64,000 nucleotides of DNA from Haliclystus octoradiatus. Its lineage: Eukaryota > Cnidaria > Staurozoa > Stauromedusae > Haliclystidae. The stretch lies in the NCBI GenBank assembly GCA_916610825.1, contig OU744446.1, positions 11,342,538-11,406,537 on the forward strand. Direction: 5' to 3'. Position 1 is the stretch's first letter. Each line of letters starts with the position of its first letter. The position numbers were made by a program, and so were the translations under genes. Positions 6,901 to 54,419 of the stretch are shown piece after piece. The notes under the pieces are model-generated. The model did not search any database. It was not told the DNA's origin and worked only from the letters and a program-made list of their open reading frames with translations.

Positions 6901-9900
6901 AATTATTAGAAAAATATGAAAAATAAATGTTCGATTTTACGTTTTTATGTCAGTAAAATTACTCAAAAGTTTATCTCTTGAGATTGTGGTGCTATATCAG
7001 TTTCATCCTCCGATTGATTGTTCAAAGTAAGGTGGATATGATCAATGTGTCTATCTATTATTCGGCCATCACTTGTCTTCAGTCTGTATGACAGTGGACC
7101 TGAAGCTTCTGTTACTACCGCAGCTAACCATTTATCATGAATGATATCTTTAACTTTGATTGTGTCGTTTGGTTTTAATGTTCTTGGTTCTCCTTGAGGT
7201 TTTGTTGCTGCTGTACCTTTGTGTATATATCTGGTAGTAATAAATGTAATGACGTCCGCACTGGCATACGCATAATTAGCTCACATGGAGGTATGCCTGT
7301 TGTTGCGTGAGGTGTTGTCCTGTAGGCAAATAACACCCTGGAAAGTTCATTATATAAAGACGTCTTCATACGATGGTTCTTTTTCAAGGCTTGTTTGATC
7401 AGTTGAACTGCCCTTTCTACTTGTCCATCGGACCGCGGGTGATATGGTGCTGTCGTGAGTGACGTATTCCATTACACGAACAGAAGTGTTTGAACTCGTC
7501 TGATGTAAACCCACTGGCGTTGTCAGAGACTAATTGTTGTGGTAAGCCAAACGTACAGAATAGATTCATCAAAACACTGATAGTAGCCTCAGATGACGTT
7601 GATGGTACGATACGTGTGTCAATCCATTTAGAATGGGCATCAATTATCACTAGGAATTGTTTTCCCATAAATGGTCCAGCATGGTCGATATGCATACGAG
7701 ACCAAGGAGTAGTAGGATACACCCAAGGATGGATTGGTGATGCTGCTGGCAGTTTTGCATTGTCTTGACATATATTACAATTATGAGCTACATCTTCAAT
7801 GTCTTTGTCTATGTTCGGCCACCAAATAAAACTTCTTGTTAAACCTTTCATACGCACTATACCTTGGTGACAATCATGTAAAATGTTCAAAGCTCGTTTT
7901 CGTAGTGCTGTTGGGATAACTACTCTTGACCCCCACAGCAATGAGCTATTGTGCGTGGACAATTCAAAATTTTTAGAATGAAATGCTTTCTGTTCAAATT
8001 CTTTCCCCTCTTTGAAACATCCACCAATATTGAGTTGTTGTACGATGCTGCTAATAACTACGTCAATACGGGACGCTTTATTGATCTCTTTAAAAGTGAG
8101 TGCACTTTCGTTCAATGTGTCCACCAGATAAACAGTATCAGATGGTGGAGGAGTCGCTTTTACACGTGGTGCCTTCTCGACAGGCAATCTACTTAATGCA
8201 TCTGCATTCTGGTGATCAGATCCAGGTTTATATTTCATTACATAGTTATACCCTGCCAGCTGAATAGACCAACGAATCAATCTTGAAGCAGCTAATTTTG
8301 TGGTGGGCTTTTCCTCAGAGAACAGTGACAATAATGGTTCGTGGTCTGTGATGATTTCAAATTTTCTACCATAGAGATATCTATGAAACTTTTGTAAACC
8401 GAAGATTATTGCCAACCCCTCTTTCTCTGTGTGCGAATAATGTTTTTCTGCTGAATTTAATGTTCTTGAGCAGCATGCTATTGGTCTTTCTGAGCCATCT
8501 TGCATGCAGTGCGAAATTATTGCACTGACTCCAAATGGAGAGGCATCGCAAGATAATAATGATGGCAATGTAGTATCGTAATGTACCAATACTCGGTCAC
8601 TTGCAATGCAATCTTTTGCTTGTTGAAATGCCTGGTCTTTTTCATCTGTCCAATTCCACTTTGTATCTTTTTGTAGAAGTTCATAGAGTAGTGCTAGGAG
8701 TTCCGTTGAGTTTTGAAGAAACTTTGCGTAATAGTTGAATAGCCCTAGCCAAGAACGTAATTCTGTGACATCGGTGGGTGTCTTAGCATCTGTAATTACC
8801 TTTACTTTTGATGGTATGGGTTTCAATCCTTCTGCATTGATGCGATGTCCAAGAAAGTCTATCTCAGGCAGATCGAATTGACATTTTGACTGTTTCAGTC
8901 GAAAACTGGCATTTCGGAATCGTTTAAAAACTTCTGCCAATGTAACATCGTCTAAATAACAGCTTACGTTTTCAATCCCAGCTAACAGTGTATCGAAAAC
9001 CCGTTGAAAGATTGCAGGTGATGATGATACTCCGAAAGGTAATTCTTGTATTGAAACAGGCCTCTGTGAGTATTAATGGTACACAATTGTTTTGATTCTT
9101 CATCTAGTCTTAGTTGTGTATATGCGTGTGCCAGATCTAACCTGCAGAAGACTTTCCCATTTCCCAAGTTTGTGAATAGATCTTTAATATCTGGTATGGG
9201 ATATTTTCCAGTCAGTGATTTTGCATAAACCGTTGCCCTAAAATCGCCACATATACGTACCGTTTTGTCAGGCTTCACAATCGGTACCACAGGGGTAGCC
9301 CAATCACTATACTTTGCTGGAGATATGACGTCATTTGCCAACAAACGATCAATTTCGGCATCAACCATAGGTTTAATGGCGTAAGGCACAGGACGGGCTT
9401 TAAAATATACAGGTTTAATCCCTTCTTTAAGATGAATCGTCACTTCACCCCCAGTGAACTTCCCTAAATCATGACCAGACAATGCTTTGTTTTCGTACAA
9501 TAATCGTTCTAATGTGATATTTTCACATATTTTATTCATCGGAAATATTGCCAACCAATTGAGAGTAATTGATTGCAGCCAATCCCGTCCTAGCAGTGCT
9601 TGATTGTCTTCAGCAGCTATAATTAGCTTCATATTTTTGTATTCGCGATTGTCATAGCTTACGTTGACTGTTATTGTTCCTAGCAATGGAATTATTTGTC
9701 CGGAATACGTTGTCAATCTTAGCTTTGTTGGCTCTAATGTCTCATTACTCAAGTATTGTTCGTAGAATTGTTTACCGATAATCGTTCTACTCGCGCCAGT
9801 ATCAATTTCAATCTCTATTGGCTTTTTATTAATGTTCATCTTAACTCTAATTGGCTTAGCAGTAGATTTCTTTTCACCTAATTTCATCATAGCGTATTGT

Positions 9901-12900
9901 GAAACGTCATCACAGTCTGTTTTGTCATTGTAGTTCATTTCCTCTTCGTGTTGGGCGTGTACCTTTTTGGCTTTTTTCTTTTCAATACATGCCTTTTCGA
10001 TATGTCCCTTTTTCTCACAATAGTTGCAGATTGTGATTTTATGTCTACGTGTACTGGGATCATGAGATCCATCGCAGCGATAGCAACTTGAAGTATAGCT
10101 TGATGGTTTAGGCTTTTCATATTGCCTGTCATTAATTTTCGATTGTTTTGAAATCAGTGCTATTGTGTCTGTGTCTGTCTCTGCATTTGGACCATTCAAC
10201 AATACTGACGTATTATTCACGGCTTGTTCCATTGAACGGCAAAGATTAAGAGATTTATCAAGTGTTAATTCCGTCTAATCCCATCCTCATCGCCAATTTT
10301 ATATATTAGTATAAAATAACAATTGATAATAAGCAGAGGACAAGTGTGTATGCTTTTTTTTTTTTTTGGATTTATGATTTATCCACAAACCGGGTAAGCT
10401 TGCAGCTTTTTTTCGCCGGGGTGGTTGGTTAAATTGGTTAGTATTTTGAAGCTTGTGTGCGTTTAATAGCCGGATGCCCTTCCTGACACCAAACCCATAG
10501 TGCTCCTGCCAGGGATTGAACCCGAGACCCTGCGGGCCGTGGTTCAACGTCCTAGCCACTACACCAAGGCCGCACTTAATCGTGCTTTGTGTCTCATTAT
10601 GATTCAAACTGAACTATGACATAATTATTTATAATCAGCTGTCTAATCACGTGTCATTCATTTCAGACATGTGCATTACCAATACTCATAAACAATACAT
10701 AACAGGAAGGTAAAACATTTTGTCGGACTCTGCCTCCACATCCTGGATTCTGCAAGGTTCAACATCTTGTCAGAAATTGGTTGTATATAATTCCAAGTGT
10801 TTTTACATGCCAGCACTTCATGAATGCATTGATGATAATGGTTTATTGGCATTCAAGCTCAAACACAACAGACATTATAAGTCTAGAATTACTATTAGTC
10901 ATGTTGACAGGTTATTGAACAACTTGAATTACGATTTTAAATAGTCATATCTTTCTTTTGGAAATGTTTATCATACAATACAGTTTTTAGTAATTTCATA
11001 AACTAATTCATTTTTTTTATGTTCTTATAAATCGAACGGAAACACGTTTTTGCCCTCTGGGATCATAACAAAGTCTCATACATTTCAAATAAAAATGTAA
11101 TAGCTCACATTGTATGGGGTGTTTACTAGACGATCACCACGCAACACTTCACCTACAAAAAGCAATGGAATAAGAAAGATGGAATTGATGGCAAATAATT
11201 TGAGTTATAATGATATGTAAATATGCTGCATTGAAATAATCAAAATACTGGGTCTAATTACCTAGATTTTCATGCACATATTCAACTCCCTTTCTTGGTT
11301 TACAAAACGGAAGAGAATAGTACCCAAATGGCATTTGAGTTTTGATACTGGTCATTTTCACAGCCTAAATTTACAAATAAGCAGCAAAGTAAAATACAAA
11401 TACATTCTACAATGACGATGAGAAATCATGTAACCGAATTCCTAGGGAACTACAATAATTTTTTTGTCCCTTCATGGTATCTAGGTCAAGGGTAGACAAG
11501 TGGAGGGCGCGGTGGGGGGCATCTACCCCTAACACAAAATTGAAATTAGTTTTCTTTTTTGAACCCAGTTAGGCCTACATACTGCATGGGAAATTAACAA
11601 AATGTTACTGTTTCTGCATAAAATCAAGTTATATATATTTGAAATTCAATCACATTGCACATACAGTAGGCTATATACAAGTCACAAGTCAGAGAAAAGA
11701 TTATGATTATGAAAGGCAATTTTGAAGCTATAGAGCCTTCAACATTTTCGCTTGAAGTCTAATATGTTTAAGTTTGACTTATAAGTCAATAAAAATATGA
11801 ATTTTTCCCAAACTGCCTCTAGCTTTATGGAATCTAGGACTCCAGGATCCCCACTTTTTCCCTATCCTGATTGCATGTCTTTCTTTTTCAATATCATTGG
11901 TTGTTGAATTCCAAGAACACATCAACTTAGTTGAAACATTTATCATTGTTAATCTATGTTATTTAAATTAACACAGCAACGCGGACGTGACTCATTGCTA
12001 GTATTATATAAATTGATAAGAAAAATGGAAGAAAATTAATTTGTGAAAACTGAAAAGCACAATATCAAAAATTTGCTAAAAAAAACAATCTGTTTTTAGA
12101 CCAATTAAATATGGGATTTGAATAGTTGATAGTAACTTAACGCAATAAAGATAAACAATTGGAAACTTACAACTCCTACAAAACATGTCCTATTTGGATT
12201 ACAAATTTGCTTTTGTTAAAAAATTCAAGTTATCAAGCTTCAAAACAACAAGTCAAATATCCACTATTTGCTTTGTTCCTTGAAGGATAATACGTTTGTT
12301 AGGCCTACACTCTGAACACAACCTTGAACTTTTCAACTTATGAATCATTATTAACAATTTTCACTGTGATGCCATTCCTGATCCCAATCCATAGGGATCC
12401 TGGCAGTTATTGAATTAAAACAATTGGCGAGTGAAGATAAAAATCAAAACACTGGCCAAATTGGGAAAGCCACAATAAATTTGATAACAAAATACTTTAA
12501 ACATAATCAACACGCTTTACTGTTCAGATGGCAACTTTCAACATTTTAAATATTTCTATTTTTTTGCCAGCAGCACTCTTCTATTTCAGAGGAGCGACAC
12601 TCCACGCTAACGGTAACACAGATAATGATTAACACTTTGGGCACAACACTGCAAATCTAGTTGCTACAAGAGATTATTCTTCTGCGTGTTTTCTCTGTCG
12701 ATGTTCCCGCGCAAGGTTGATGGATCCATCCTATCAACGGACAATCTTGCGCTGAGTAAAGAGTGTTAGTAGCATATCAATAACATAAACTCTACTGATC
12801 AAAAAATTATTTTGTTGGCTTACTAGACAATAGTGTAAACTGTGTCATATGTATGAGCTTGAAGATTAGAAAGGCCAAACACTATGTCATCCAGGGGACA

Positions 12901-18600: not shown

Positions 18601-21600
18601 GGCTCTTTTTTCTATATGTAATGATTGTAAATAATCATTAATGATCTCAGCCGCAACACTGCAGATCAATTTCATCATATCTTTTTTGAAATGGGGGGGG
18701 GGGGGCGTCCAAAATCCTAGAACATTTTCACCCATTTTGTTTTTCTGTATTATTTTTGATAAATCTCATTATTATCAATGTTGATAGAAAAATATCACTT
18801 TTCTTCTAAATTTGTTTTACTCTTGTCATACCTTTACTGTTTGTATTCAAATTGTTCCACCCACAGGCCTACTTTTTGTGGCTAATCCAGAGATATATTA
18901 CATTGTACTGCAGTATGTATATTTGAGCAGGTCATTCACAGACTCACTGTATGAATGATGGTTGTTTGACATAGATGGTCATTTCAGACAGTGAAACAGA
19001 AAATAATGCGATCTTGTTGATTTCTACTACTGTACCTGTGTGCTTCTTTGCGTGACTGATTTTGTGATATAGCTTTCCATTTGTTGATTGTTGAATCCTG
19101 TTGACACACCTTGTTTGACCTGGTATTCTATGATTTAAGGTGTCAATACGGTTGTGGCACCAATGTACCTCTCAGAGATTGCACCAATTAGCCTGCGAGG
19201 ATCTTTGGGTACTATGAATCAATTTGGGATTGTTAGTGGAATATTAATTTCACAGATCCTTGGATTGACATATGTAAGTTCTACTAAATCAAAATGTTAG
19301 CTAGCTAATACACAGGTCAATATTAAAATATACTGTAGTAGAACGCTTGGAGGCAAACAGTAGGTTTTCAGATTTTCAAAATTTACCATGATTGTGCATG
19401 TAGGCACCCTTTATGTTTGTAGCACATATTTAAACCTTCAGTTTTATAAGGCTAAATATGAACTAAAAACTTTGAATAAAACACTCTGCTAATAGTAATC
19501 AGCCCAACTTCAGAAATACTGTATGTGTAGCCTATATATATATCACTATCAATTGTAAAGGTAATAACGTATACTCCCTTTGAATCTAATGTAATTGTAA
19601 ACAGGGTTTCACAAAAGTTTTGATCTTCCGGGAACTGTGTTGTTCGATTGTAAACCTTCTGGGATTAAATTTATAATGCTTCATAGTTTTGAAGAATTGA
19701 TCTGAAGATTTCAGAAATTTGACTTACTTTGAAGCAAGTCGCATAGAGTTCAAAAGATAAAAATATGAAATCCAAAAATAATAAATTTTGATTAAGAAAA
19801 TAATCATGATCAGATTGGAAACTTCGGGAACCAGGTTCCCAGGATCCCGCACTTTGTGACAGCCTGATTGTAAATCTCCTGTTTGTTTGTAAATCCTTCT
19901 CTGAGCTATCTGCAAGCACCTAATATGGTTGGTCCAATGGTCCTATCATAGAGGCTGTGGAATCAATGTTTGTCTATAAAGATATGCTACAAATACATTC
20001 TCATGTGAATACTACAATACCACCTTTACTTGTAAAAAACCTTATTAAATAGATTTCAAAAGTCTTAATAATTATACTTTATCTGTTCCTATCCAGGTAC
20101 TTGGAACAGAGGCTGCTTGGCCATTCTTATTTGCAACATCTGGCATTGTGGGTGCTGTACAGTTGTTCCTTTTGCCGCTGTGCCCCGAAAGCCCTCGTTA
20201 TCAACTCATTGTAGAAAACAAAGAAGAGGCTGCAATTGCTGGTAACGAATCAACATTTAATTATTTCAATTCCAATGGTATATTCTTTTTTATGTATCCC
20301 AAGGATGTCGGCAAGTCTGACTTTGGCCATGGAAATTTTAATTTTGTGGGAAAGGAGATACAATTTTTTATAATTCTGATTTCACATTAGTCCTTAGGGG
20401 ATATGAGGATAGGAATATTATCATATAGTTAGCCCTATTGCCATTCCGACTGTCATTCCGAGTTTTGGAAAGTGAATAATAGAAAATAGTTTAATTTCTA
20501 CACTAAGTATCTCTGCTGATATGCGCGTTTAAACGGAAACAATCCTTTTCAACCTTGACTTCCTCATTTAACATCAACTATCCAAGTTTGTGTAAAAAGT
20601 TGTTGGTGTCATGTGCATTTTAAATAATCCAATCTATGTTTAGGTCTGCGAAAGTTCAGAGGTTGTGATGATGTTTCTGCCGATATTGATGAAATGAAGG
20701 TATGACCACGCAATTCACATTATATATCAACGTAGGACGTTCAAATTATATTGAAACCAATTTTGACTGTTAATTTTTATTTTAATAGATTGAAGCTGAA
20801 AAGCAAAACAAAGAAAAACGCATCAGCATCTTGGAATTATTCACAACCCGGGATCTTCGTCGGCCGTTAATCATTAGTGTTGTTATGCAAATGTCACAGC
20901 AGTTATCTGGTATAAATGGGGTGCGTAACAAATCATGCTTGATTCATTTTATCAGTAACATCTTGAAGTGCCAGGCCATTGATAACTGAAGATACCTCTG
21001 GGTCTAAGGTCTGAGAATAGTTTAGTAGAGTGCCAACAAGTCCATTTGTGGTAGACATATTATCATGATCACAGTATCTGACAAAAGGTTTATCCTTCAG
21101 GAATCCTAGAAATTTTTTCCTTCATGGTATTTTTTGGGGGATTGGCCTATAAATCACAAAAATATCAATTTTCCTCTGACTTCGCTTCAGGCTTCCAGGG
21201 GATCCCTTGATCCCCACTTTTGTCGGACCTGATCATGATTGAACTTGAGTTTTAGACATAGTTGAAAACACAATTTTAGTCCTTATTGTGCTCGTATTGG
21301 CCGGGATAGTAATAATTCAAAATTAAAACCAGTCACATTCGTTCTTGCCATGGATATTTTTTGCTCAATTTGCATTGTTTTTAATGTATCCGGGATAAAA
21401 ATAAATGAGCAATCTACCCATCATCAGATTACAATGCAGAGGCAGGTTGTGATTTTCCAAAGAACTAGGTTCATACAATATATAACTCAAAATAAATTAA
21501 GAATAAAACTGGCTGCAAACGTAGCAATATAATATCAACACATCAAACCAAATTCCACACAAATATTTTAATTATTATTATATATAGTACAGCATTCGAA

Positions 21601-23737
21601 CAGCATTTTATTGAAATAGCATAACACACTAATGTATATTTTTGCTATTGAAATGAACTAATTTCGAATTAATAAGTCGGTCGTCAGAGATTAATTTTCT
21701 ATTGTTTCCGCCTATTGTTCTTATTCAGCATCCACTCCTTGTTAGCGACCATAATCGGAAGGTTCCCTTGAGTAGTCGCTTACGAGGAGTTCGACTGTAC
21801 TAGAGATATTAATACCTGCCCTGCTGGGTATAATGTGACTTTATCATTGACTTCTTAGGGGGAGGACACTGACTGTGAAAACCCATGGGTTGCCTTTTCC
21901 TGCTTGACCTTGATAAATGTTTGGGCATTGCAGTGAAACAAATTAAAATTATATTTCACTGCTTCTGTAATTTTGCTTTAGTGTAATTTACAACATACAA
22001 ATACCATTGATTACTTTCAAATCCAAACATATTGCAAAGAATGTCACAACAAAAAGTATTTTTAACACTTACTTTATTAGTTTTGTAATAAAAAACAGAC
22101 TGACAACATACAAAATATTACTAGTGACTTCTAAGAAAAGATTTGGAAGAAAAGTTGATAATTTTTATTTATTGGGCAAACCTCAACAAAAAATTAAGAA
22201 GAATAAATGTAGGATTCCAGAAGGCTAAAACTTTTGTCGGACGCTGACCATTGAACTAATACCAGCAAACTTTATTCTCTAAATTATAATTTTACTTTAT
22301 TGACTTGAAAATATCCCATAGGTACTATTCTATTCAACCGACATGTTTTCCAAATTAAATCTGAGTACTGCCAAAAGCCAAGCAGCCACATGTGGTGTGG
22401 GAGCAGTTAGCGTTGTCATGACAGCAATTGTGGTAAGGTTTCCAACAGATAGTTTATTTATGCACATTTTATATTATGATTGAGATTATTTGATTTGATT
22501 ATTTTGATCATATTCAATCTTAATTATTATAGGGTGATGATATTAATTAATTAGTAAAATACATTTCTGCTATACATTTGCAGATTTTCCTTGTTGAGAG
22601 AAAAGGTCGTCGTTTCCTTATGTTGGTCGGTCTTGCTGGAATGGCTATTTTCTATGCCCTTATCACAATCACTTTTGTATATGTTGATGTAAGTTGGATT
22701 CTATGCAATGCATGTAGTTCAATTACCATGTTAGTCTTTACTACATGATTCTGTTGTCGTGGTGTTATGCTAATATATAAATCTGATTATCTCAATTTAT
22801 AGAAAAATGAAGACTGGGCCAAGTATGGTTCAATTGTTCTAACCCTCCTGTTGGTGGTCTTCTTTCAACTTGGACCAGGTTTGAGTTTTTCAAGGTTATC
22901 TTCAAAAACACACTACTTGAAGTGTTGTTAAATTGTTATCAATTATTGAATTACTTCAATGCATTGATTTATGTTGCAGGTCCAATCCCATGGTTCATTG
23001 TAGCGGAGTTGTTCTCCCAGGGTCCTTTGCCAGCTGCAATATCAGTTTCCGGAATTGTTAATTGGTTTTCTGGCTTTCTCGTTGGTCTCATTTTTCAATC
23101 AATCCAAGTAAGTGAGAGGGTTTTTACTTTATAGTGATCCATACATTAGAGAAGACCATGGTGTTTATGAGCAGACTACGTTTAAATAAGGAAAACCGTT
23201 ATAATCTCAATATGATTATGTGGATATAGTCGAATTTTCTCGCGCTTAATACCTCCTTTTTAATTAATAACCCTGCATGAAACTGATTTCTATTTGCCAT
23301 ACAATGTTTCTACCTTGCTTGGTATCCCACTTTTCATCCATACCAGAGAGGGAAATATGAATCATATTCTGCTGTAATACACTATAACCATCGTTGTTTT
23401 TGAGCCGATACAGAAGAATCCCTTAAATTGTTCATTTTTGGAAGAAATGGATGAGTTATTTCGGATTCATTCGATTCCTTTTGAAGTTGTTTTCTTGTTG
23501 TTTTCTATTTAGAAATTGTTATTTCCGTACACGTTTCTACCTTTCATGGTTCTCGTCATTTTATTCTTCATCTTCACTTATTTTTACGTTCCCGAAACAA
23601 AAGGACGTACAGTAGATAATATTATGGACGATTTCCGTGGACCCAAGAATGATCACGAAGAAATTGGAGATACTTCACCCGTAAAGAAATTTTCGAAGGG
23701 TGCCAGCGAAGAAACACAACTTATTGAACCTAGCTGA
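15657..23737 (+). CDS. SLC2A: Class I facilitative glucose transporter (GLUT/SLC2A), 12 exons
   Basis: Twelve-helix sugar uniporter of the plasma membrane. Exons: 15657-15818, 16482-16612, 18216-18340, 19140-19273, 20097-20241, 20644-20699, 20789-20920, 22322-22432, 22584-22688, 22803-22878, 22980-23107, 23513-23737. All joins keep phase and give 509 residues, the usual family length. Motifs: QFGYN and INAPEK (helix 1), N-A-S glycosylation site in the first outer loop, G-R after helix 2, [18 protein letters not shown] and [20 protein letters not shown] (the helix 7 QLS of class I), [18 protein letters not shown] and PETKGR. The C-terminus is short and acidic (EETQLIEPS). AATAAA follows the stop by ~22 bases. 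Convergent with EYA. Closest to GLUT1-4; the paralogue is not assignable. Confidence 0.95.
16759..16870. repeat. Dispersed ~120 bp repeat
   Basis: GGCGCCCATACAGC, CCATTTCTAGAGGAATGAC, GATCTCAGCCACAACACTG and AATTTCAACA appear in the same order at 18541-18690 and 39598-39725, and partly at 12583-12660. Unknown class; no TIRs seen. Confidence 0.5.
16924..17920. mobile_element. Outer element of a nested pair (ATCCGATTC-rich, AGGTCTGC ends)
   Basis: Begins AGGTCTGCCGATCAG and ends CCGATCCGATGCAGACCT, so the termini are inverted (AGGTCTGC). The interior is packed with AATCAGATT, ATCCGAAT and their complements. It is interrupted by the long-TIR element at 17152-17686. A relative without the insertion lies around 29215-29680. 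Target duplication not identified. In GLUT intron 2. Confidence 0.6.
17152..17686. mobile_element. Long-TIR miniature element with TTAA flanks
   Basis: Arms of about 190 bp are inverted copies: TTAAAGTGCACATGACACCA on the left matches the complement of TGGTGTCATGTGCACTTTAA on the right. Both arms also carry GTAGCCCATG, CTTATAAGCTGA, GAAAGTACCATA and GTGCTCCTTCGAAAGT. TTAA at both outer edges suggests piggyBac-type insertion, although the ends lack a typical piggyBac CCC. No transposase. A right-end fragment lies at 20600-20630. Confidence 0.75.
18541..18690. repeat. Dispersed ~120 bp repeat, second copy
   Basis: TCCCATTTCTAG, GATCTCAGCCGCAACACTG and GATCAATTTCA as at 16759-16870. It is followed by a run of 13 G at about 18692. 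Confidence 0.5.
19602..19866. mobile_element. hAT-like miniature element
   Basis: 265 bp, starting CAGGGTTTCACAAAAGTTTT and ending CACTTTGTGACAGCCTG. It is flanked by a perfect 8 bp duplication ATTGTAAA (19594-19601, 19867-19874). Internal GGAACCAGG and CAGGATCCC agree with the other copies. No transposase. In GLUT intron 4. Confidence 0.8.
21070..21231. mobile_element. hAT-like miniature element
   Basis: 162 bp, with CAGTATCTGACAAAAGG near the left edge and CACTTTTGTCGGACCTG at the right. ATCATGAT flanks both sides (21062-21069, 21232-21239). It shares CAGGAATCCTAG and GATCCCCACTTTTGT with the rest of the family. In GLUT intron 7. Confidence 0.75.
22140..22245. mobile_element. Truncated hAT-like miniature element
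   Basis: Ends AAAACTTTTGTCGGACGCTG, preceded by GGATTCCAGAAGG, in the orientation opposite to 21070-21231. The other terminus is missing. In GLUT intron 7. Confidence 0.5.
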
Positions 23738-24084: not shown

Positions 24085-27000
24085 TCAAAGATGACCCAGT
24101 TTTAATGCGTGGCTTAAATTGATTAGATCGTTGTGGGTTGAGATGGGCCAGAATGGGAATTCAAGCTAAAAGAGAAACATTTGGAAACAATATAATTACA
24201 GAATTACAGTATTTATAATTTATGCTAGAAATTGCTAAATCATGCATTGTCATTGTGAGTCATGTAGGTTCTCCTACCAAGAATTTAATTGCTTTATAAA
24301 TCGGTATGTACAGGCCTACTTGCGCGTACAATTTTCCTAATCTTCACTCGCATTCAATATAATCCGATTAATTAGGCAGCAGTTGGAAAAAAATTGACAA
24401 GAGGATGGGGTCCAAAATAGACTTGGAATTGGTAGACTCAATGGTGAATGACCGCTTACTGCCTCCCGCATAATTCTCCGGCCGGGACGCGATTATAAGT
24501 TAATCAATTAATGATAGCGGCAAATATTAAAATATAACAGTTTTCCTGTCATCATAGGATCCATAGATGGAACGCACCTGTTTACTTGCGATTTCTTCGT
24601 CTCTGCCAGGAGCACCAACAACTACATACGTACATTTTCTACCAAAACGACTTTGTATTTTATCAAAGCATGCGAGTGTGCCTGTACAGATAGTAATAAC
24701 GACAATACATTTTTCAGCCATACATACTAATTCTTACAGTTCTCTTCTAAACACAAACTTCATTACATTTGAGGGATATCGGCATATACTAATCACACAT
24801 GACTAAATACGAATAATGTGTGCACAGTCGTAACTACATGCTCCTGTCTGCTCTGGGGGGTATTTCTAACATTGTCCGACAAAATGGGCGTAGCATATGC
24901 GCAAATGGAAGCTGCAGTACTACTTCAATACCTCCAAAATTGCACGATTTTGCAATTTTTTATCTCAAATTGCCTGATTTGTTCTCAAAACCTTTTATTG
25001 GAGGGGGTGCTTCCCAAACCAGATTTACGGCCGTGAACATGTGCACAAAAGGGAAATTAGCCCCAGGAGTTATGCAGTAGAGACACTGACACTGAGATAT
25101 AAGAGATATAATCCTGTCTTGATTAAGTGTCAACACAATTATGTACCCTCCAGAATCATTGCTCTTACCTGTTTTTGAAGTGCTGAATACATTTTGTGGG
25201 GGAATAACCGAAGCAAGACCAAAAAATACCAGTTTTGAATATGCTAGAACGAGTGGTGATGATGTCACAACCACGCTCAGGCAATTTGCTCTACGAGTAA
25301 GGAGTTAAACAAGTATGTTGATGAAAACGCCGTAAACTATTTGATCACGGTAGAGAATAGAGTAAGGTTACTAACTATACCTTCGATTTATCATGGAAAG
25401 ACATCTACGTGATACTTCCAACCATGAATCAGTTATGATATCAATTTCTCTTCTCAGCTGCATCCATGTCTCGTATTTAGCATCAAGGAGTTCTATGAAA
25501 TTAAGAGTCACAGCCAATCAAATGACTCAAATCAATGTTACAATAATAGAAACCAACTGGAAATTTACGTGCATGAGTCTTACGTTCGATGTTGTCATTA
25601 GACGACGAATAAACATCTCGAATTTTTCTGTAACGAAATGCCATTTTTCTCAGCCAATCAGAGCCACCACGCCTTGATGTTATGCCAGCACTCAAAGAGG
25701 CACTACTGTTGGTTTTTGATTGTAAGAAACCATCACTTTCAAATTTATAATCACTAAAATAGAATAATGCATACATATATGAAATAAGTTTCGAAAAGCT
25801 TGTTGATCAAAAAGCTTCCACGAGCTTAGATAAAACAAATGGAAATATTGACGCTAACAGTTCAGTTGAGAGTTTTAGCTGTTAACATTAAGATATCCAA
25901 GCAGTTCCGGAAAAATAAATTTTAATATTCAAAACCAGTCATTCATCATATAAATGGATGAACTTAACCAATAGGAATATGCATACGCTACTTTTGCAGT
26001 TTTGCTGAAATTACCAAAATAGACAAGACTGTTCAATCTATGAAAATTAATGCTTTTGATAAGGGAATTAAAACGGCTTGTACAAATGCCACTGTTGCAT
26101 AATTGCATCATTTAACTTGAAAACGGTTAATGATTTAAGCCGAAACGTCGTGCAAAATAATAAAAACCACCTGCAATAATAATAATAATAATAATAATAA
26201 CACATACTCCACTGCTGCGTGTATAGCTTCTACTTACATTTTTCATTTTCTCATGGGTTGTCCAGGATTTTCGAATTCCATTTCGAAATTGATGATTCAA
26301 GTATTAATTTGTAATTTGCTGTTACTGGATTGCTTTAATTTACATGTATTACGATGTGGTCGCTTTTCAGTCAACCATATCATCATCATCATATATTTAA
26401 AGGGCCTGGTAAGCCACACTATTATAGGCTTATTTTCACAAGGCTGATGGTGTTCTTTAATTAAAATTTGCTTGTAGCCACATGTGCTACTTTAATTAAC
26501 GTTTTTGCAAAGCATTAAAATGCACTTGATGAACATCACTACTCTAGGCCAATCATAATCAATTTCTTATTTAAAATGTGATTTAATCAATAACATAGGG
26601 AATTAAAATGATTAAATCCAATTGCAGTATTTACGCATGGGATGATATTGCAGCAAGAGTAGATTAAATTCTTCGTCAAAAAGAAACTATACGCTTGCTG
26701 GACTTTCTATTGGCCGTGAAGTATGATTCTTGAAGCACTCCAAAAAATATATACAAAAACGGAAATTGTAGCCCAAAATTTTGGGCAGGAGGAAAGAATG
26801 AAAGGCATACCTTAGGTCTTGTCCACTGTCTTCTGGCATTGCATCGTCTAATTGTTCCTGATCGCATCCCTATCGTCACAGCAAGAAATGCAAGTGAAAA
26901 CAAAACGAAATATCGTAAATGAAACACCTAACACTCTCCGATGTGCATGTATTAATCATATACCTCGAGATCGTTGAGAAAGAAATGAGTTTCAGCAAGA

Positions 27001-28746
27001 TAATATATAAGTCGTTCCGCCCGTAAGCCAATTGACATGGTCGATGAAGGATCCTTCAATTGAGAAATGAAGGGCTCGCATCAAATTGTGATCACGTGGG
27101 AAACAAACAATACATTCACAAATCTATTATATCTGAGCTAACCTTTCCAAATTTGCTAGCGTATGTGCTGTTGAGTAAGGAATGGAGTATCACAGCCGTC
27201 TCATCTAGACTCCAGATTAGAACCCTCTGTAAAAAGAAAGCAATAACATTGGTTAATATCACCAAGGAATAATTATGGCATTGTTACAGTAACACAGCGT
27301 GGGATGTTCTCGTACCTCAACGCTCTGTTCTGGTTCTGTTGGGATAGACGAAACAGTTGCTCTTCTACTTTTGGTTGATTTTCGTTTTGATGTTGAACAT
27401 CCTGATGTACTATGACTGCGTCGAGGTTTAATAGAGGTTGTATGATGTTGCTGTTGCACATGATAAGAGGGTGGTTGTTGGTTGCAATTTATTGATTTTC
27501 TATCAAAATTGTAAAGCAAAGGGCTCGCTTCCAAGTTGGCAGCTGCCTGTAAACGAGATTCAAGACCAGGTGGGAAAGAGTTGGATGGAACACTTTGGTA
27601 GCGAGATTGTTGTTGAGCGAAGCCACCGCCCATCATTTGCCCTGGAATATGAATAGAATGAGTGTAGTTATACAGGGTCATTATACCGTCACATTAGTTG
27701 CAGAATGTTGGAGTATTAGATGAGATATGTGCTTACCTGTGAGGTCAGTTGGTGTTGCAGGCACTGGCGTAGTTGGAATCGATTCACTGCCATGTGATGT
27801 AGGTGATGAGATACTGTCTTGTCTCACGCCATGTGTATAACCAATGTTTCCATCTTGATGATCATTTGGATTCATATAAGATGCGGCTGGCTGCATAGCG
27901 TTGCTAGGGAGATAGATTTGTGTTGTGTTACCAATGGATGATGGACCGAGGCTCTGACGAGTAGCATATGGATATGGTGCATACATGTAGCCATTTGCAG
28001 AAGAGTATGATAAAGAAGTAACGTCATTAATTGATGAAGAGACAGGCATTTTCTGAAGAAGAAATGGCGTGGCAGCTAAAGCGGGGATTCCACCTTGGTT
28101 TGGAAAGCCGCCTGTTTGACTGACAAAGGCAAAGTTTTGAAAGGGAAACTGAGTAAATGACGATGGGATGATACCAGAAACGGTTGATTTGTTGGCCATT
28201 AAATTTGATTCAGTTGAAGCACCATTAAGCGTCGTGTTGTTATTATTACTGTCACTGCTAGCATTGTCTCCTGGATTATTATTATTATCATTGTTAGCAT
28301 TACTGGAAGACGCTGAATTGAAACCGAGATTAGAACAAAACGGTGGTAAACAATTGAACATCTGCTGTTGTTGTTGTTGTTGATGTCTACTTTGCAACAG
28401 AGGAATACCAAGAGCAGAGCGTGACTGAGGATCTACATTCGAATAAGATTCCGTTGAAGGTGCGCTAGGGTCAGAAGAAGAGCTTCCTGTAGCCACACCA
28501 TTTGAAACTGAGGAATACGATTGATTGCTTTGCACATTAGGCATCAAATGATTAGAGTAGTTGAATGGAGGTAGGTTGGGATACGTTGAACTAGGGAAAC
28601 CAAATCCTGACATCGATTGACCATAGCTAGGTAGAAAGACTTGGTTATTAGTAGTGGCTGTTGGCAATTTCAAATCAATTTCATGTAATGGTTGTTTTGA
28701 TGGCGTAGACGATGGATACAGTCCGGTAGTTTCCTCTTTAATTGCG

Positions 28747-28777
<31 letters not shown>

Positions 28778-31700
28778 TGTTTTTCTCACTCATGGGTTTT
28801 ACCTTCGTGGGTTTATTACTGTGTAGAATTCGAGGGAGAAAATAGAATTGATTAAACTGGCATATGCCAGCATGAAATGAATGATATGATCATTTGAATG
28901 TTACTTACACTGCGGGCTGAAATACATCGTCCGTATCATCTTCTCCATCGCTTAAGTCATTATCATCAAGACGCAGCCGTTTCACCTATAATCAAACATA
29001 TCATATTATTATACACGTTTTTTTAATTAGAAAGACTAGAGCCTGCCAGTATTGAAACTTTCTTAAGAAATTCGTAATGTTAGTACCCAAACTTTCTTAA
29101 CACTTTAATGAATACCAAATATAGACACAAAAATTCAATTCTTAGCGGTTGGTTTCAATAGAAGCATTTAGAAATTATAAAAATGTCTCCAAAATGTTCC
29201 CTCTTATCAAAAGCATTTCAAAAAGTAAGAATCCGAATGTTAAAAATTCGCGATCCAAATCTGAACCGATACGAATGAGATTAACCCCGAAAGTATCCGA
29301 AAATTTCGGATTCAGATTTGATCCGACTTCGATTATTCAAAAGTTTCGAATCCGTAAATTAATTTTTAAGTGTATGAGTCACGTTGAGCTTCATTAGCAC
29401 TTTGGAAAGTTGAGTACTTATCACTTTCTTATGATAAAAGGTGTTATTTATGTATACTATATAAAGAACACCGTACATCATAATTATACTCGTATGCACT
29501 ATACTATAGCAGAAGTGAAAAGTATCCATACTTCAAAAGGAGTGCATCCGGATTATTAATTTATGTATTCATTTTCGGACTTTTTAAGGACCATTTGTCT
29601 GAAATATTTGTTCAAATACTTCTATTGGACTTTGTTACGTATTCAGAATCTGAACATTCTGACTTATAAACACCTCTGCTATACAGTACTCGATCATCCG
29701 TTTGCCTCTACCCGGGGTGAGCTTCAACTTTAATAATGCCGGGGTTACGTCCCTGATACAGAGCCGGAAAACTACCATATAGTTATATTAATGCTCAGCA
29801 ATATTCGTCCGGAGAAAGGGTTGGACCAACCATTGACTCATACGATTGACTAGCGCTTTACAAGCTGTGCCGTACAATTGTATACAGTGGGATACAGTGT
29901 TTACTCGCAAACTATATATTCAGGCTGATGAGCTTGTATAATATAGCCATCTAAATCTATACAGTACATTAGATCAAATTCTGCCATGTGGGAGGGGACA
30001 ATCAAGGTCTATACAATTAAATTTGAATTTTGTAATTCCTTGTAACTTGATTTGACTGTATATTGGAATAGCTGTGATGATATAAGAACTATCAGTATCA
30101 GTGACTTTAGGAACATATATAATACTTGTGTATGGTTATTGAATCAACTTTAATGTACAAATTTGAATTTTGCGAAGCGCCATTAGATCATAAGTACTAA
30201 AATAGGCAGTTTCTCTCTTTTTCAAAATTAATTTCATGGTAACTTCAAATCTTAATAGTTGTTGACATAAATTTAATGTTTATATTTACAAATAAAAATG
30301 TTCATAACTTAATGATTGAATGGAATGAGAGTGTATTTATTTATGGAATTGATGAACGTGAAAGATGTTTACGTCCCAGGAACAGAAGTTTGGCGTCATG
30401 AAAAAAGTAGATTCTTTTTAAATATTTCACGTCAATTTTATATCACCAAAAACGATTTCTTCGGGCGGGCAAATCAATCGTGTACAACCTGATAACAACG
30501 AAGTTAAGTGAATGCAAACTCAAACATAGATGAAATACCATTCAATTGTATATAGATGTAAATATAACAAAGAACAGAGTAAAACATTTAAACAATAACT
30601 TTTAGATATATGTATGATCTTGATGTGATGAAATGTCCATTGTGAATAATCTTTGCAGATGGATAATAACTACAAGTTAACGGATCAAAACGGGTAGAAT
30701 TTTGTAATCATAGCTTAATTAAAACGACAACGATGATCCATAGAAGGTCGTAAGGTTAGTGGCATTGTAGACGAAGTGAAATTGACAAAGCCAGGTACGC
30801 AAACATGATGGTTAAATAGAATTTGCATGTTGGCTCTTTGAGGCGCCACTGTTGACAGGAAGGCAAACGATTGATCGAGTGGAACGCAAATCACTATGAC
30901 GCGTCAGCACACTTTTAATCGCTGATGATATCAACCTAATGACTTTTATTCTATCTAATGTTATGTATACGTACAATATCAGATGGTCATTATCAACCGA
31001 TACAATAATCAAAATAACTTTTATGAAACATTCAAGAACAGTGTTTCCCACAGGGTTGATTTACATTTCTAAATAAGTCAATAATATAATCATCTCAACT
31101 ACTACGAACTACCAACTATGGAACTACCAAGGAAGTAAAAATATCTATCGAATTTCTCTTGTTACAAATTTGCCGTAAATCCATTTATTAGCTATACAGT
31201 AGTTCACCAGCCTTGGTGTCATACCAGTAATTTGGAAACACCGATAAATCAACTGAAATTCTGAACACCTTACAATTATTTTTACTGGAGGTAGTCCACA
31301 CATTCACATTACTTGCAAAAAATTGATAACAACGGTAGCTCAAAAATGAATTCGAGGATGAAAATTTTTTGTAAAGGCGAATTTGTGAGTAACTTTCTGC
31401 CTTCAAATCTACGCCTTTGCTCAACCGACTATACAAGAGCGTATAAAAAATAATGATGGTTTGAGCTTGCACAATAGTCGGAGAGACTATCGAAGCTGGG
31501 ACCTAACCTATACGAGTCTATATATACAGAGTCACCTCTATAGATCGATGGCTCTGTATATACAGACTCGCTACAGCAGAGGCCTACATAAAGTTCCGTA
31601 TTGGACAGGTGACGGACGGTACATTATATTTGAAGGTCACACCATCGATGAAGCAAATATGTCTGTTTTATTAGCTACGAAATAACTGAGAGATCGACAT

Positions 31701-44513: not shown

Positions 44514-46255
44514 TTTAAAATAGTATAATGACCAGTATATGTATGTTATGTAGGAAGAATAAAACGCATTTGGATTTGGAATATATATTTATGAAAATGT
44601 TCTTGAATGAGATGAGCTGCCATATTCATTGCCATGTGACCGGACGAGGCTACAATCTGTGACGTCACATCAAAGATAAAAATAAAAAGAAGAGTGCACT
44701 GGCATTTTTAGATCATGCACTGGCACTAGATCCTTGGAGATAGATAGATAAATAGATAGATGGGTAGAGATAGTGTAAAGATGTTATTTGTTTAGTAGTT
44801 GTTACTTAAAATTCTCGATGTCTGATTTGGTCTGAAGCCAAGCATAATGTTATAAATGTTTAAGATTTTGAGATTGAAAGATTTACAGAACATCGTATTG
44901 ATTTATTTTTGCATTTATGTGATAAATTATCTTGGAGAATTTTACTACATCAAGGATTGTGTCATGGGATGAAATGAGAACAAATCTTTGAATTACGAAT
45001 TCAAAATGTGACCAATTCTGCTCCAGAGGTTATTGACTAACATTTCGCATCTTGGTACAAAGTTAACTTGACTCTTAAGAAGGATTCTAGTTTGTTCTTG
45101 TTGCTCCAGCACTACAATAAATATAAATAATATATACAGTACCCTGACACTTTTGATTAAATCTTCACGATATAAACCAGCGTGTAACCTTGTACTCAAT
45201 TACAGTATAATAAATTCAATCGATGCTGCTGAATTTGAAATTATAATCTCTCTCAGAATTTCTTACCTCCCTGGAAAGTTTTGATTCACAATAAAACGAT
45301 CAAATTCATTAACCGACTGGAAATAGTCCGATGCCTTAATTCCAAGAGTAGGGAAATCTATAATTAAACAGAATCCGATCGATAAATTAATAAACCTTAT
45401 ACTAATAGTGTTGATAATGCTGATTGACTGTGATTCCTCCCCGGATTCCTCAAAAACTTCTTGTGTTGCTATATAGATCGTTACCTATAGAACAATCGGA
45501 TAGCGAGACAGAAAGAGAGCTTCGAATTTCTCATTGCACATAATCAAGAGTACAATTAGAGCTGCGTTAATTAATTGAGCTCAAAGGTCTTCTGATATTG
45601 CTCATTTGGTCCTTATCTGATACAAATGAATTCGAAGATGTGTGAGATCAGCCTTCAAATTAATCTTTCTCCAGACCTCTCATAAGGTCACCTGTTACGA
45701 TCAACCAGAATTTCCCCTTTAGTTTGACCTTGATTTTCTGCATGTAATTGATAAATGTAAACACCAACCTCTAGCGGAACGATTCTTTATTGCATGTTAA
45801 TGGGAAAGATGAGGATCTGAAGGACAAAACATTAAAGCAAATAAAATAATAAAGATGTGAGTAATTTTGCACTTCATTTTATTGTTCTATGTTTATGGAT
45901 TTGATCTATATATTATATATGTTATGCATTCTTCATCAATTATGAGAATTATTCAACTACAAGGATGAAACCAATCAACTTGAATTTAATAATAAAAATT
46001 ATGAAGATTAAATAAGAATATGCAATACGTTTTGATCTAAATTTATCTTCAATGTTCACATGAAATTATTTCTGTTTCTGGAAATACTGATTGTCACGTA
46101 TTGAATTTTTCAGGCTGTGTATGAGTGTGCATTCTCTTCAGCTCTATTGTTCATAACCAGTAATTCAGGCAGATATTGAGACTTCATGGATAGTCATATA
46201 AGGGCTATAATACAGCTAAATTATAATTTTATCTTGATCTTTGTTTCTTCTTCAG
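44514..46255. promoter_or_regulatory. Divergent intergenic region between ATRAID and aminopeptidase
   Basis: 1.7 kb between oppositely transcribed genes, with a GATA microsatellite at 44736-44765. The right boundary looks like a splice acceptor (TTTGTTTCTTCTTCAG, to 46255), so the aminopeptidase probably has an upstream 5' UTR exon in this interval. Not located. Confidence 0.4.
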
Positions 46256-46285
46256 AATCCATTTCTGTATCATTATACAGCAATT

Positions 46286-48798
46286 ATGATGGCAACTAAT
46301 CAGTCCCCACGGCAGAACGAAGACCGTCGCCGATCAACACGATCTCAAACATTACGCTTAGCCGCCAGTTTATCAATTGTATTTGTTTCTATAGCAGCAT
46401 TTCTTACAGCTTATTTAGTTATCGTACAGCCATCATACGCACCTGTAATCAATGTAATGTCTAGATCACTAAAAAATCTATTCAGAAAACAAACCTTGGA
46501 GATGATCAATCCCGTAATAGTTGTAAATATCTCCACAGAATTTCCAATAAAAGAAGGTCGATTACCGGACTTTCTACAACCTTCTGATTATCATATCAAA
46601 TTAGATATTGATTTGACTAAAGATACATACAAAGGTTTAGTATCAATCAATTTGGAATGTCTATCGCCAACAAATTCCATCGTGTATCATGGTGTTGATT
46701 TAATATTCAAACAACTAAACGTCAAACGCATCAACAAGAAAGCAGAAGAGATTAAGATTAGACGTACGCTCTACCATCCTGAAACTGAGATTTATTACAC
46801 AGAATTAGTTGATGAATTACAGCAAGGAGATAAGATTGAGTTAACTATTGATTATAAGGCACCATTCTCAAAACAGTTAGCTGGATTGTACAAAAGCCAT
46901 TACAAAGGAGAAGACGGCAAAAAGAGGTAAAAATTTTAGAGGGATTATTTTCAAACTATAATATACACCCCGTGAAGAAATAGATAGATAGATATTTATT
47001 TCAATTATTTGATACATGTACATAAATTCAACTGTTAGTTAAGTGTTTATCTGCCTTTGGCATACATAACATGCAGTCTTTTATAGTACAGGATGTGGTA
47101 TACTGATCTTGTAGAGTATTTTGTACTACACACCTTTTAAATGATGGAGTAAGATAGAAACCTCCTGCAATCCCACGAAAGACAGCCTTTCAGATAGACA
47201 TTTTAAAATGTTTAGAGATTAGTAATACATTCCGACAACGAGGCTGCGTAAAGCGCATATAGAGCACGGGACGTTATCATATACCGTAGATCATTGGGTG
47301 CGGCACTCCAGGAACTTGTGAGTGTCCAAGTGTATCATACTGGGCAAATCAAATCTGACAGGATAATACAAAGAAGTGCTTATCAAGGCTCAATTACTGT
47401 GCAGTGAGGGATACGGGGAATGAAAAGTATACATCTCCCGATAAGATAAGAGAAACACAAATTGAAAAGTAATAGTAGAGGCTCAGACATGGAATTTTTA
47501 ATTAGATATCTATGTTAGAGTAGACTCTCCAGTAATACTGCCTGAATATATTTGATACAGAATCCGATGGCAATATATGCTGATAGAAAACAAACACTGG
47601 ATGAAACTCATAATTACAAGCTCATTTTTTATCATTACACACATTAGCCAGATTAAAACTAATATTTTAACTTATTTAGATGCATCTTAATCTGATTTAT
47701 CTATTTTAGCATATTTATTACATTATTAGGCTAGTTGCAACAAGCCACATGGAACCAACCGATGCACGCAGAGCATTTCCATGCCTCGATGAACCAGAAT
47801 TTAAATCTCGTTTCCACATCACCATCAATCATGATAAATCATATACAGCATTATCAAACATGCCAAGGAAAGACGAGAGAAGAAATGGCAATCAAATTGA
47901 AGATAGGTTTTTACCAACAGAACCAATGAGTACGTATTTAGTAGCATTTGCTGTGACGGATTTTGTGTTCAAAGAAGCAAAGACTAGTTCTGGAAAACCG
48001 GTAAGACGCTTTACTACACTAATTCAATGCCAATGATTCATAGTGCATGGTCTTGATCCAGATCGAAGCCTTTGTCTCCCCCATTCGATGGATGCATAAA
48101 GAGTGTCCAACGGACCGTCTATAAGCAATATTAAGAGCCAGCCGTTCTCAAACCGTTCAGAATATATAGAAATGAATGTCTTTAGTGTCTAAATTATTTT
48201 AAGTCACTCATTCCTGTATCTATAATAGGTCCGTTGCTATGCACCTCCACATGACTCCGAACGGATTCAATATGCTGCTGATGCGGGGGCAAAAATTATT
48301 TCATTTTATGAAACATTCTTTGGAGTACCGTATCCACTACCAAAACTAGGTAAGCCAAATATTAGTTTATCTATATGAGTGTTTAGTGCTACATAACATA
48401 CCACTGTCTAGTATGCAGTATCTCTAATCATTAGATTTACTTGCCGTACCTGATTTTCTTGCTGGTGCAATGGAAGACTGGGGATTAATTTCATTCCGTA
48501 ATGCATACCTAATTTATGACAAAGAACGTGTCCCACTTGAGGCGAAGAAGCAGATCACCATGGTGATAGCACATGAATTGGCACATCAGGTTAGTAAACC
48601 AATCAGATACAATCAATTAAGAACACAACAGTAGAATATTGTAACCGAATATTAAATAGAACTGTTCCGTCGTTATTGTTGCAGTGGTTCGGAAATCTTG
48701 TTACAATGAAATGGTGGAATGATATTTGGTTGAATGAAGGATTTGCAAATTTTGTAGAAATGCTTGGAACAAACAAAATTGATGATACATTCTGTGCG
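46286..48798 (+). CDS. Type II membrane M1 zinc aminopeptidase, N-terminal half (5 exons)
   Basis: Gluzincin aminopeptidase of the APN/APA/ERAP group, trimming N-terminal residues at a membrane surface. Exons: 46286-46926 (ATG ATG start after an acceptor at 46255), 47730-48000, 48229-48349, 48435-48589, 48685-48798; phases agree. Seen: basic cytosolic tail, one signal-anchor helix ([20 protein letters not shown]), [18 protein letters not shown], the exon-2 block [24 protein letters not shown] (the family consensus is GAMEN), and [13 protein letters not shown]...LNEGFA with both zinc His, the catalytic Glu and the third zinc ligand. The remaining catalytic and C-terminal exons are not found up to 64000. 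They could lie beyond a retroelement and satellite array, or the gene could be broken. Confidence 0.88.
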
Positions 48799-53221: not shown

Positions 53222-54018
53222 TTTCTCGGGGTTACAGCCGGTTCCACATGTGCCGCAACCCCGTGATAGTTTTCCGTCGGTGAGTTAAGACATCCGATGG
53301 CTAAATGGCCATCCTGACCACAATTGTAGCATTTTCCATCACGTGCTATCTCACTTTTGTCAGTACTGTTGCGTCCTTGTGGTTTATCTCGTGACATCAA
53401 CAAATAACAGTCTTTGACGATGTGCCCAGGTTTTCCGCAGTAAAAACATTTTATATGATATTTATTCCTGGTCTCTTTCTTGTTGAGAGTAGGTACAGCG
53501 GCGGCAATAACACCTAAATCTTGTGCATGAGCATTTTCTGCTTCCATCAATACTCTTGCGCGAGCTACCAGTTGCTCATCATCTATCGTCAATAAAGGGC
53601 GCAGCTGCATACCGATATTTTCAGGCAGACCAACGACGAAAGCTACTCCTGCACCTCCCATACCAGAAAGTTCACACAAACGTTTTAAATCGGCATAATA
53701 TGCGTCCACATTTTCGCCGCTTTTGTAAGTTCTTCTTCTTAATTCATCATATGCTGCAAACTTTGATAATGAAAATGCTTCCAGCATTTTTCTCTTTACA
53801 ATTTGTAAGTCTTTCTGATTTTCACTGGACATTTTCTCATATATGAGAAACGGTGGTCCGCGTAAAAGTAAAGGTACTAACATAACCTTTTCGTTCTCCT
53901 CATATCCTTGCAGTTTTGAAACTATCTCAAACCGCGACCACCATTCACTAAGGTCTCCTTCTCCAGTGTACGGTGCTACTATATCAGTGATTTTTAATTT
54001 TGCTTTACTAACCGCCAT
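53218..54018 (-). CDS. gag: Retrotransposon gag
   Basis: 266 codons. The N-terminal part (WWSRFEIVSKLQGY, LLLRGPPFLIYEKM) resembles retrotransposon capsid domains. The C-terminal part has two CCHC zinc knuckles: CFYCGKPGHIVKDC and CYNCGQDGHLAIGC. It packages element RNA in a cytoplasmic particle. It ends TGA in a 4 bp overlap with pol. Confidence 0.9.
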   Translation of the reverse strand: MAVSKAKLKITDIVAPYTGEGDLSEWWSRFEIVSKLQGYEENEKVMLVPLLLRGPPFLIYEKMSSENQKDLQIVKRKMLEAFSLSKFAAYDELRRRTYKSGENVDAYYADLKRLCELSGMGGAGVAFVVGLPENIGMQLRPLLTIDDEQLVARARVLMEAENAHAQDLGVIAAAVPTLNKKETRNKYHIKCFYCGKPGHIVKDCYLLMSRDKPQGRNSTDKSEIARDGKCYNCGQDGHLAIGCLNSPTENYHGVAAHVEPAVTPRK

Positions 54019-54419
54019 GGCCCGTTAACAACATATATTTCTCTAGGTCTTGCTCTCATCAAGACTACACACACTCTGACCATACGATACGCACGTGGGC
54101 GTTTACATTCTATACACACAAATGAGGCTAGCCTCAATTTATCATGAGTGTTTCAATTTACAGTTCATACATATAATTATTCGATTACAAAGTATTTGAA
54201 TACATATACGTTCACAGAAACCAGTGAGCAAAGTTATATACGCCTTTTGATGTCTTCTTCATGTAATTATTTCTTTTCTTATTATGTGTTTGGTAACTGT
54301 ATTGATGATAAGGCACCGCAACAGGGCCTAAAAAGCAATGGGACAATGTGTTAACATGGATCAGACATTTTACCTGCCAAGAGGCAGATGCAATTTGAAT
54401 ATATTAGACACATAAGTTA

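Follow-up and report, generated by a model that had tools for sequence, protein, structure and literature searches.

The only EYA gene found in the genome of the stalked jellyfish Haliclystus octoradiatus very probably encodes a catalytically dead HAD domain that is retained as a SIX cofactor. The HAD tyrosine-phosphatase site would have been dismantled by the replacement of the nucleophile Asp with Ser, of the motif III Lys with Thr, and of the metal-binding motif IV Asp with Ala-Pro. EYA proteins are both transcription cofactors and tyrosine phosphatases, and the developmental weight of the enzyme is disputed. Here the one EYA that can be detected is missing the nucleophile, the motif III lysine, and the metal Asp, so that this animal would offer a natural case in which the two functions are separated.

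Gene structure and genomic context

A window of 64,000 nucleotides (nt) from H. octoradiatus was analyzed, this being the whole stretch of DNA to which the coordinates below refer. The EYA gene is located on the minus strand, from 28985 to 24085. The spliced model contained 11 exons, comprising 768 codons and a stop, with no internal stop and with consistent phases, and all ten introns were of the GT-AG type (10/10). The region upstream of 28985 was scanned for further coding exons, none of which was convincing, and the model starts at 28985. The exons and the codon at the nucleophile position were as follows (taken from the spliced model unless stated otherwise).

28909..28985, minus strand: EYA exon, N-terminal region (VKRLRL...)
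27737..28818, minus strand: EYA exon, N-terminal region rich in Ser, Thr, Pro, Tyr, and Asn, with a partial match to the homologues P0105, P0104, and P0029
27316..27641, minus strand: EYA exon, end of the N-terminal region, closing with ...EQSVE
27143..27226, minus strand: EYA domain exon 1, motif I WSLDET (spliced model and codon reading)
27209..27211, minus strand: AGT (Ser) at the nucleophile position, human EYA2 D274 (codon reading and alignment)
26964..27053, minus strand: EYA domain exon 2, cap region
26811..26869, minus strand: EYA domain exon 3, cap region
25584..25753, minus strand: EYA domain exon 4, cap region with the DWLRKMAFRYR block
25381..25492, minus strand: EYA domain exon 5
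25169..25290, minus strand: EYA domain exon 6, with motif II VTSSP at 25268-25254 and Ser at T448 (spliced model and alignment)
24578..24681, minus strand: EYA domain exon 7, with ACA (Thr) in place of K480 at 24679-24677 and motif IV GAPG, which is GDG elsewhere, at 24616-24605 (spliced model and alignment)
24085..24165, minus strand: EYA domain exon 8, C-terminal SHALKLGHL and stop

The exon carrying motif I (27226-27143) was 84 nt long and in phase 0 at both ends, preceded by TTTTTACAG and followed by GTTAGC, and its translation was RVLIWSLDETAVILHSLLNSTYASKFGK. Given the base composition, the probability that 769 codons would be free of stops by chance was below 1e-15. Since the WSLDET exon lies inside this open 11-exon model with canonical introns, it is not a chance reading frame.

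Other features were also observed in the window. A sugar transporter gene, of the SLC2A type by our reading, was located on the plus strand at 20049-23737 (PF00083 in 22811-23131). Its stop, placed by eye at 23735-23737, was approximately 350 bases from the EYA stop, placing the two genes in a convergent, tail-to-tail arrangement. On the plus strand at 46238-48036, exons of an M1 aminopeptidase (PF17900) were found. Two retroelement stretches were located on the minus strand: one at 6963-10274, with protease, reverse transcriptase, RNase H, and integrase domains, and one at 50243-54024, with a zinc knuckle and weaker matches to reverse transcriptase and integrase.

Family assignment

The C-terminal 276 residues were aligned with human EYA2 at 292 bits, from query residue 2 through to the end (2-276), and scored 249.3 bits against the EYA domain profile TIGR01658 (cut-off 195.3 bits), covering profile positions 2-272 of 274. 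The spliced model had the EYA-type layout, in which the C-terminal EYA domain stands behind a long region rich in Ser, Thr, Pro, and Tyr. When this N-terminal region was used as a blastp query, the top three of 166 sequences were P0105 (1.4e-8), P0104 (0.001), and P0029 (0.17), P0105 alone being a strong match. In phmmer, the same region gave no match, with no candidate passing the bias filter. In the tree, the Haliclystus sequence grouped with P0029, P0104, P0105, and Clytia-type sequences, which in turn joined the anthozoans; the support for the group with P0029, P0104, and P0105 was weak (76/56). Judged by these comparisons, the Haliclystus protein is an EYA by descent.

Catalytic residues

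Residues are numbered according to human EYA2, the length of which we take to be 538 residues, counted from the end of the alignment. By their position, K480 presumably corresponds to the lysine of motif III and D502 to the Asp of motif IV.

The first-pass annotation had read motif I in the exon 27143..27226 as WSLDET, with Ser (AGT) at the nucleophile, leaving the strand unstated. This was confirmed on the minus strand, where the codon 27211-27209 is AGT and the motif is WSLDET, not WDLDET. The codon had further been described as a two-base change from either Asp codon, which is correct for GAT, but GAC differs from AGT at three bases. At D502, the motif IV codons were GCT-CCT (Ala-Pro). D274S, K480T, and the change of D502 to Ala-Pro, with a gain of one residue, thus co-occur in the same protein, together with the milder change T448S. 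The protein retains the second motif I Asp (D276), the Ser of motif II, and the acidic residues that follow motif IV.

For comparison, 196 homologues were fetched, a set that draws on the best 120 of 4702 matches in one search. Of 197 sequences, 25 were outside the alignment: P0001, which is a piece of the window, 15 sequences short of motif I, and nine with WDLDET. Among the matches listed, D274 was Asp in every one of the 173 sequences aligned with the Haliclystus protein (172 homologues plus human EYA2), K480 was Lys in the same 173/173, and D502 was Asp in 169 and Asn in four. The alignment against other EYAs suggested in the first-pass annotation gave WDLDET in each of the 181 homologues, among the matches listed, whose alignment reaches motif I. 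Tunicates had been included in that suggestion; they are not a natural comparison, since the host is a staurozoan cnidarian. The placement of the gene in the tree likewise speaks against a tunicate.

Sequence divergence and SIX genes

The whole gene might be decaying or under relaxed selection, in which case the catalytic changes would belong to a wider loosening of constraint on a protein with little function. We consider this unlikely, although the sequence is clearly divergent: its end branch was 0.86, against a tree median of 0.097. The rest of the domain had been described as intact to its last residue. The frame is indeed open throughout, yet the residues K480 and D502 are missing, and Haliclystus EYA deviates at 38 of the 120 columns that are conserved at 95% or more among the matches listed. 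In a smaller alignment with 79 other sequences, 25/91 columns deviated. Four of the five catalytic columns were among the 38 (hypergeometric P 0.034), an enrichment that is modest and that counts the mild T448S as a loss, though Ser is permitted at motif II.

Against decay, 768 open codons and ten canonical introns would be unexpected for a gene drifting at such divergence. P0101, the EYA of the mite Medioppia subpectinata, also deviated at 38/120 columns, yet it keeps D274, D276, K480, and D502, with Ser at T448, and divergence alone therefore need not break the site. Three schistosome sequences, with 19 to 28 deviating columns, kept all five catalytic residues. Segment 480-514 of the Haliclystus protein, though well kept (27/35 residues identical to P0029, 25/35 to P0104, and 22/35 to P0105), contains two of the three catalytic losses. 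The last exon was identical at 18/24, 19/24, and 20/24 residues to P0029, P0104, and P0105, respectively. Across the C-terminal exon and the one that carries motifs III and IV, identity to these three close relatives was thus 63 to 83%, which also argues against relaxation of the gene as a whole.

The well-conserved SIX1/2 gene of the same genome points in the same direction. A SIX domain profile run over the genome matched five loci, four of them strongly (131 to 157 bits) and one weakly (27.5 bits). No SIX frames were picked up by a regular-expression search, and tblastn was used instead. One of the strong loci (L008) was of the SIX1/2 type, being 77.5% identical over 178 residues to a human SIX1 probe, and it retains ACVC in its first helix. 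On the EYA side, the C-terminal stretch HALxLxxL was kept, and its Ala is what we take to be EYA2 A532, the contact of SIX1 V17. The weak fifth match (L012, G000 C4:17925417-17925593) had a homeodomain-like piece nearby and is perhaps a divergent SIX gene.

Phosphatase mechanism

In a 2021 review (PMC8069645), the two motif I aspartates of EYA are given as the nucleophile and the general acid-base, motif II as Ser or Thr, motif III as Lys, and the motif IV acidic residues as coordinating Mg; both aspartates were completely conserved among the species of animals, plants, and fungi aligned there. With the nucleophile, the motif III Lys, and the metal Asp gone, neither the phospho-aspartyl intermediate nor the usual holding of Mg2+ is expected under this mechanism, and we strongly infer that the known phosphatase chemistry has been lost in Haliclystus EYA.

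Among the features of HAD phosphatases, the motif I Asp nucleophile, the motif III Lys, and the motif IV metal acidic residue were absent, and the motif II Ser/Thr was present. Because the three defining residues are missing, the protein is, on its sequence, not classed as a HAD protein tyrosine phosphatase. The Pfam HAD profile PF00702 gave 0 families at E <= 0.001, a result that is not strict, since P0054, P0057, P0062, P0101, and P0169 were likewise listed without PF00702.

The domain might still be an enzyme by another route, for instance with the Ser as a nucleophile, or with D276 and water, and an altered metal site. The remaining D276, motif II Ser, and acidic residues after motif IV would be compatible with such activity. 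Three residues of the published mechanism (PMC8069645) are, however, missing together, and the Asp is kept in every homologue showing motif I (181/181 among the matches listed), which makes this route very improbable.

Assembly quality and copy number

All evidence was drawn from the assembly, and the K480 position falls at an inferred exon junction, so an assembly error or a wrong exon model could in principle hide a true protein with WDLDET, K480, and D502. The probability of this is slight. The junction aligns without a gap, and on inspection by eye no splice donor restoring K480 was seen that would join the next exon in frame. The other two sites are inside exons (2/3), and an error would have to account for several independent base differences in three places. 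The published assembly is described as having QV 56.6, 68-fold HiFi coverage, and 33 scaffolds (PMC9975415). A WDLDET EYA exon was not found anywhere in the assembly. As candidates for such an alternative exon, the codon pattern matched two genome sites, and both were rejected as non-EYA: the first was without EYA flanks and had stops nearby, and the second reads WDFDET.

The searches covered 261,861,806 bases in 33 contigs; the published total is 261,898,343 bp (PMC9975415), which is 36,537 above the bases searched here. A second EYA with WDLDET, for which a search had been suggested in the first-pass annotation, was not found in the genome. Over the genome, TIGR01658 gave three matches, all of them in the gene described here (3/3), as were all seven matches (7/7) to the EYA domain of P0029 at E <= 10 and the single match (1/1) to the WLRKMAFRYR codon pattern; no second EYA was found by any of the three. 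That a second, catalytically intact EYA exists, with the present gene as a side copy, is scarcely credible: the BUSCO completeness of 81.3% leaves room for genes that are absent or were overlooked, but the k-mer completeness is 99.99% (PMC9975415), an intact copy should outscore the present one, and the three kinds of search match one gene only. Judged by these searches, H. octoradiatus has one EYA orthologue, the sole copy found.

Discussion

A natural pseudophosphatase EYA had been proposed from motif I. That proposal is supported, and it is strengthened by the joint D274S, K480T, and Ala-Pro at D502, by the lack of a second EYA in the genome searches, and by the lack of a WDLDET EYA exon. 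The most likely role of the protein is that of a SIX1/2 cofactor. In such a case, the domain would fold as a HAD-like scaffold without phospho-aspartyl chemistry, and it would dock on the SIX domain of SIX1/2. The N-terminal region rich in Ser, Thr, Pro, and Tyr, brought in by this docking, would then activate transcription.

In flies, eyes and viability were reported to be fully rescued by Eya genomic constructs with D493N, E728Q, or both (PMC3595212), and phosphatase-dead eya is reported to rescue less well in flies heterozygous for so or dac (PMC5673202). Despite the weaker rescue in these sensitized flies, the rescue by phosphatase-dead Eya means that, in principle, an EYA can work when its enzyme function is lacking. 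Co-expression of so/six1/2 and eya in the developing rhopalium is described for the scyphozoan Aurelia (PMC4520661). Dark pigment spots are on record for some Haliclystus species, in a text where octoradiatus is unnamed (PMC6448553). Among the titles and abstract openings listed in searches of the open-licence literature, no prior report of a natural phosphatase-dead EYA was found.

More tentatively, the sole EYA of the stalked jellyfish could be a fixed and old pure SIX cofactor, whose dead pocket may have been given a second use, either as a scaffold site or as a phosphotyrosine site without hydrolysis. The catalytic site could have been weakened separately in hydrozoans (D502N), and the phosphatase half could have been repeatedly dispensable in medusozoans, the cofactor half not. 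We regard this wider scenario as possible rather than probable.

Comparison with known EYA proteins

Human EYA2 (PDB 3geb, 4egc) can be aligned with the Haliclystus domain from start to end, and the two differ at D274S, K480T, D502 (Ala-Pro and one additional residue in Haliclystus), and T448S. The closest EYAs among the matches listed, P0029, P0104, and P0105, which are medusozoan by their position in the tree, have N-terminal stretches similar to those of the Haliclystus protein and, like it, carry an insertion of the SRR/TRR type ahead of the DW[LM]RK block. Unlike Haliclystus, they retain D274, D276, T448, K480, and D502. The hydrozoan-type sequences P0057 (Clytia hemisphaerica), P0054, P0062, and P0169 resemble the Haliclystus protein in missing the motif IV Asp (Asn at D502) and in having Ser at T448, whereas D274, D276, and K480 are retained in them; from these residues, the phosphatase of hydrozoan-type EYAs may be weakened, too. 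The engineered Drosophila Eya proteins D493N and E728Q, for which full rescue is reported (PMC3595212), are also altered in active-site residues. They are laboratory mutants, whereas the loss in Haliclystus is natural and affects the only copy found.
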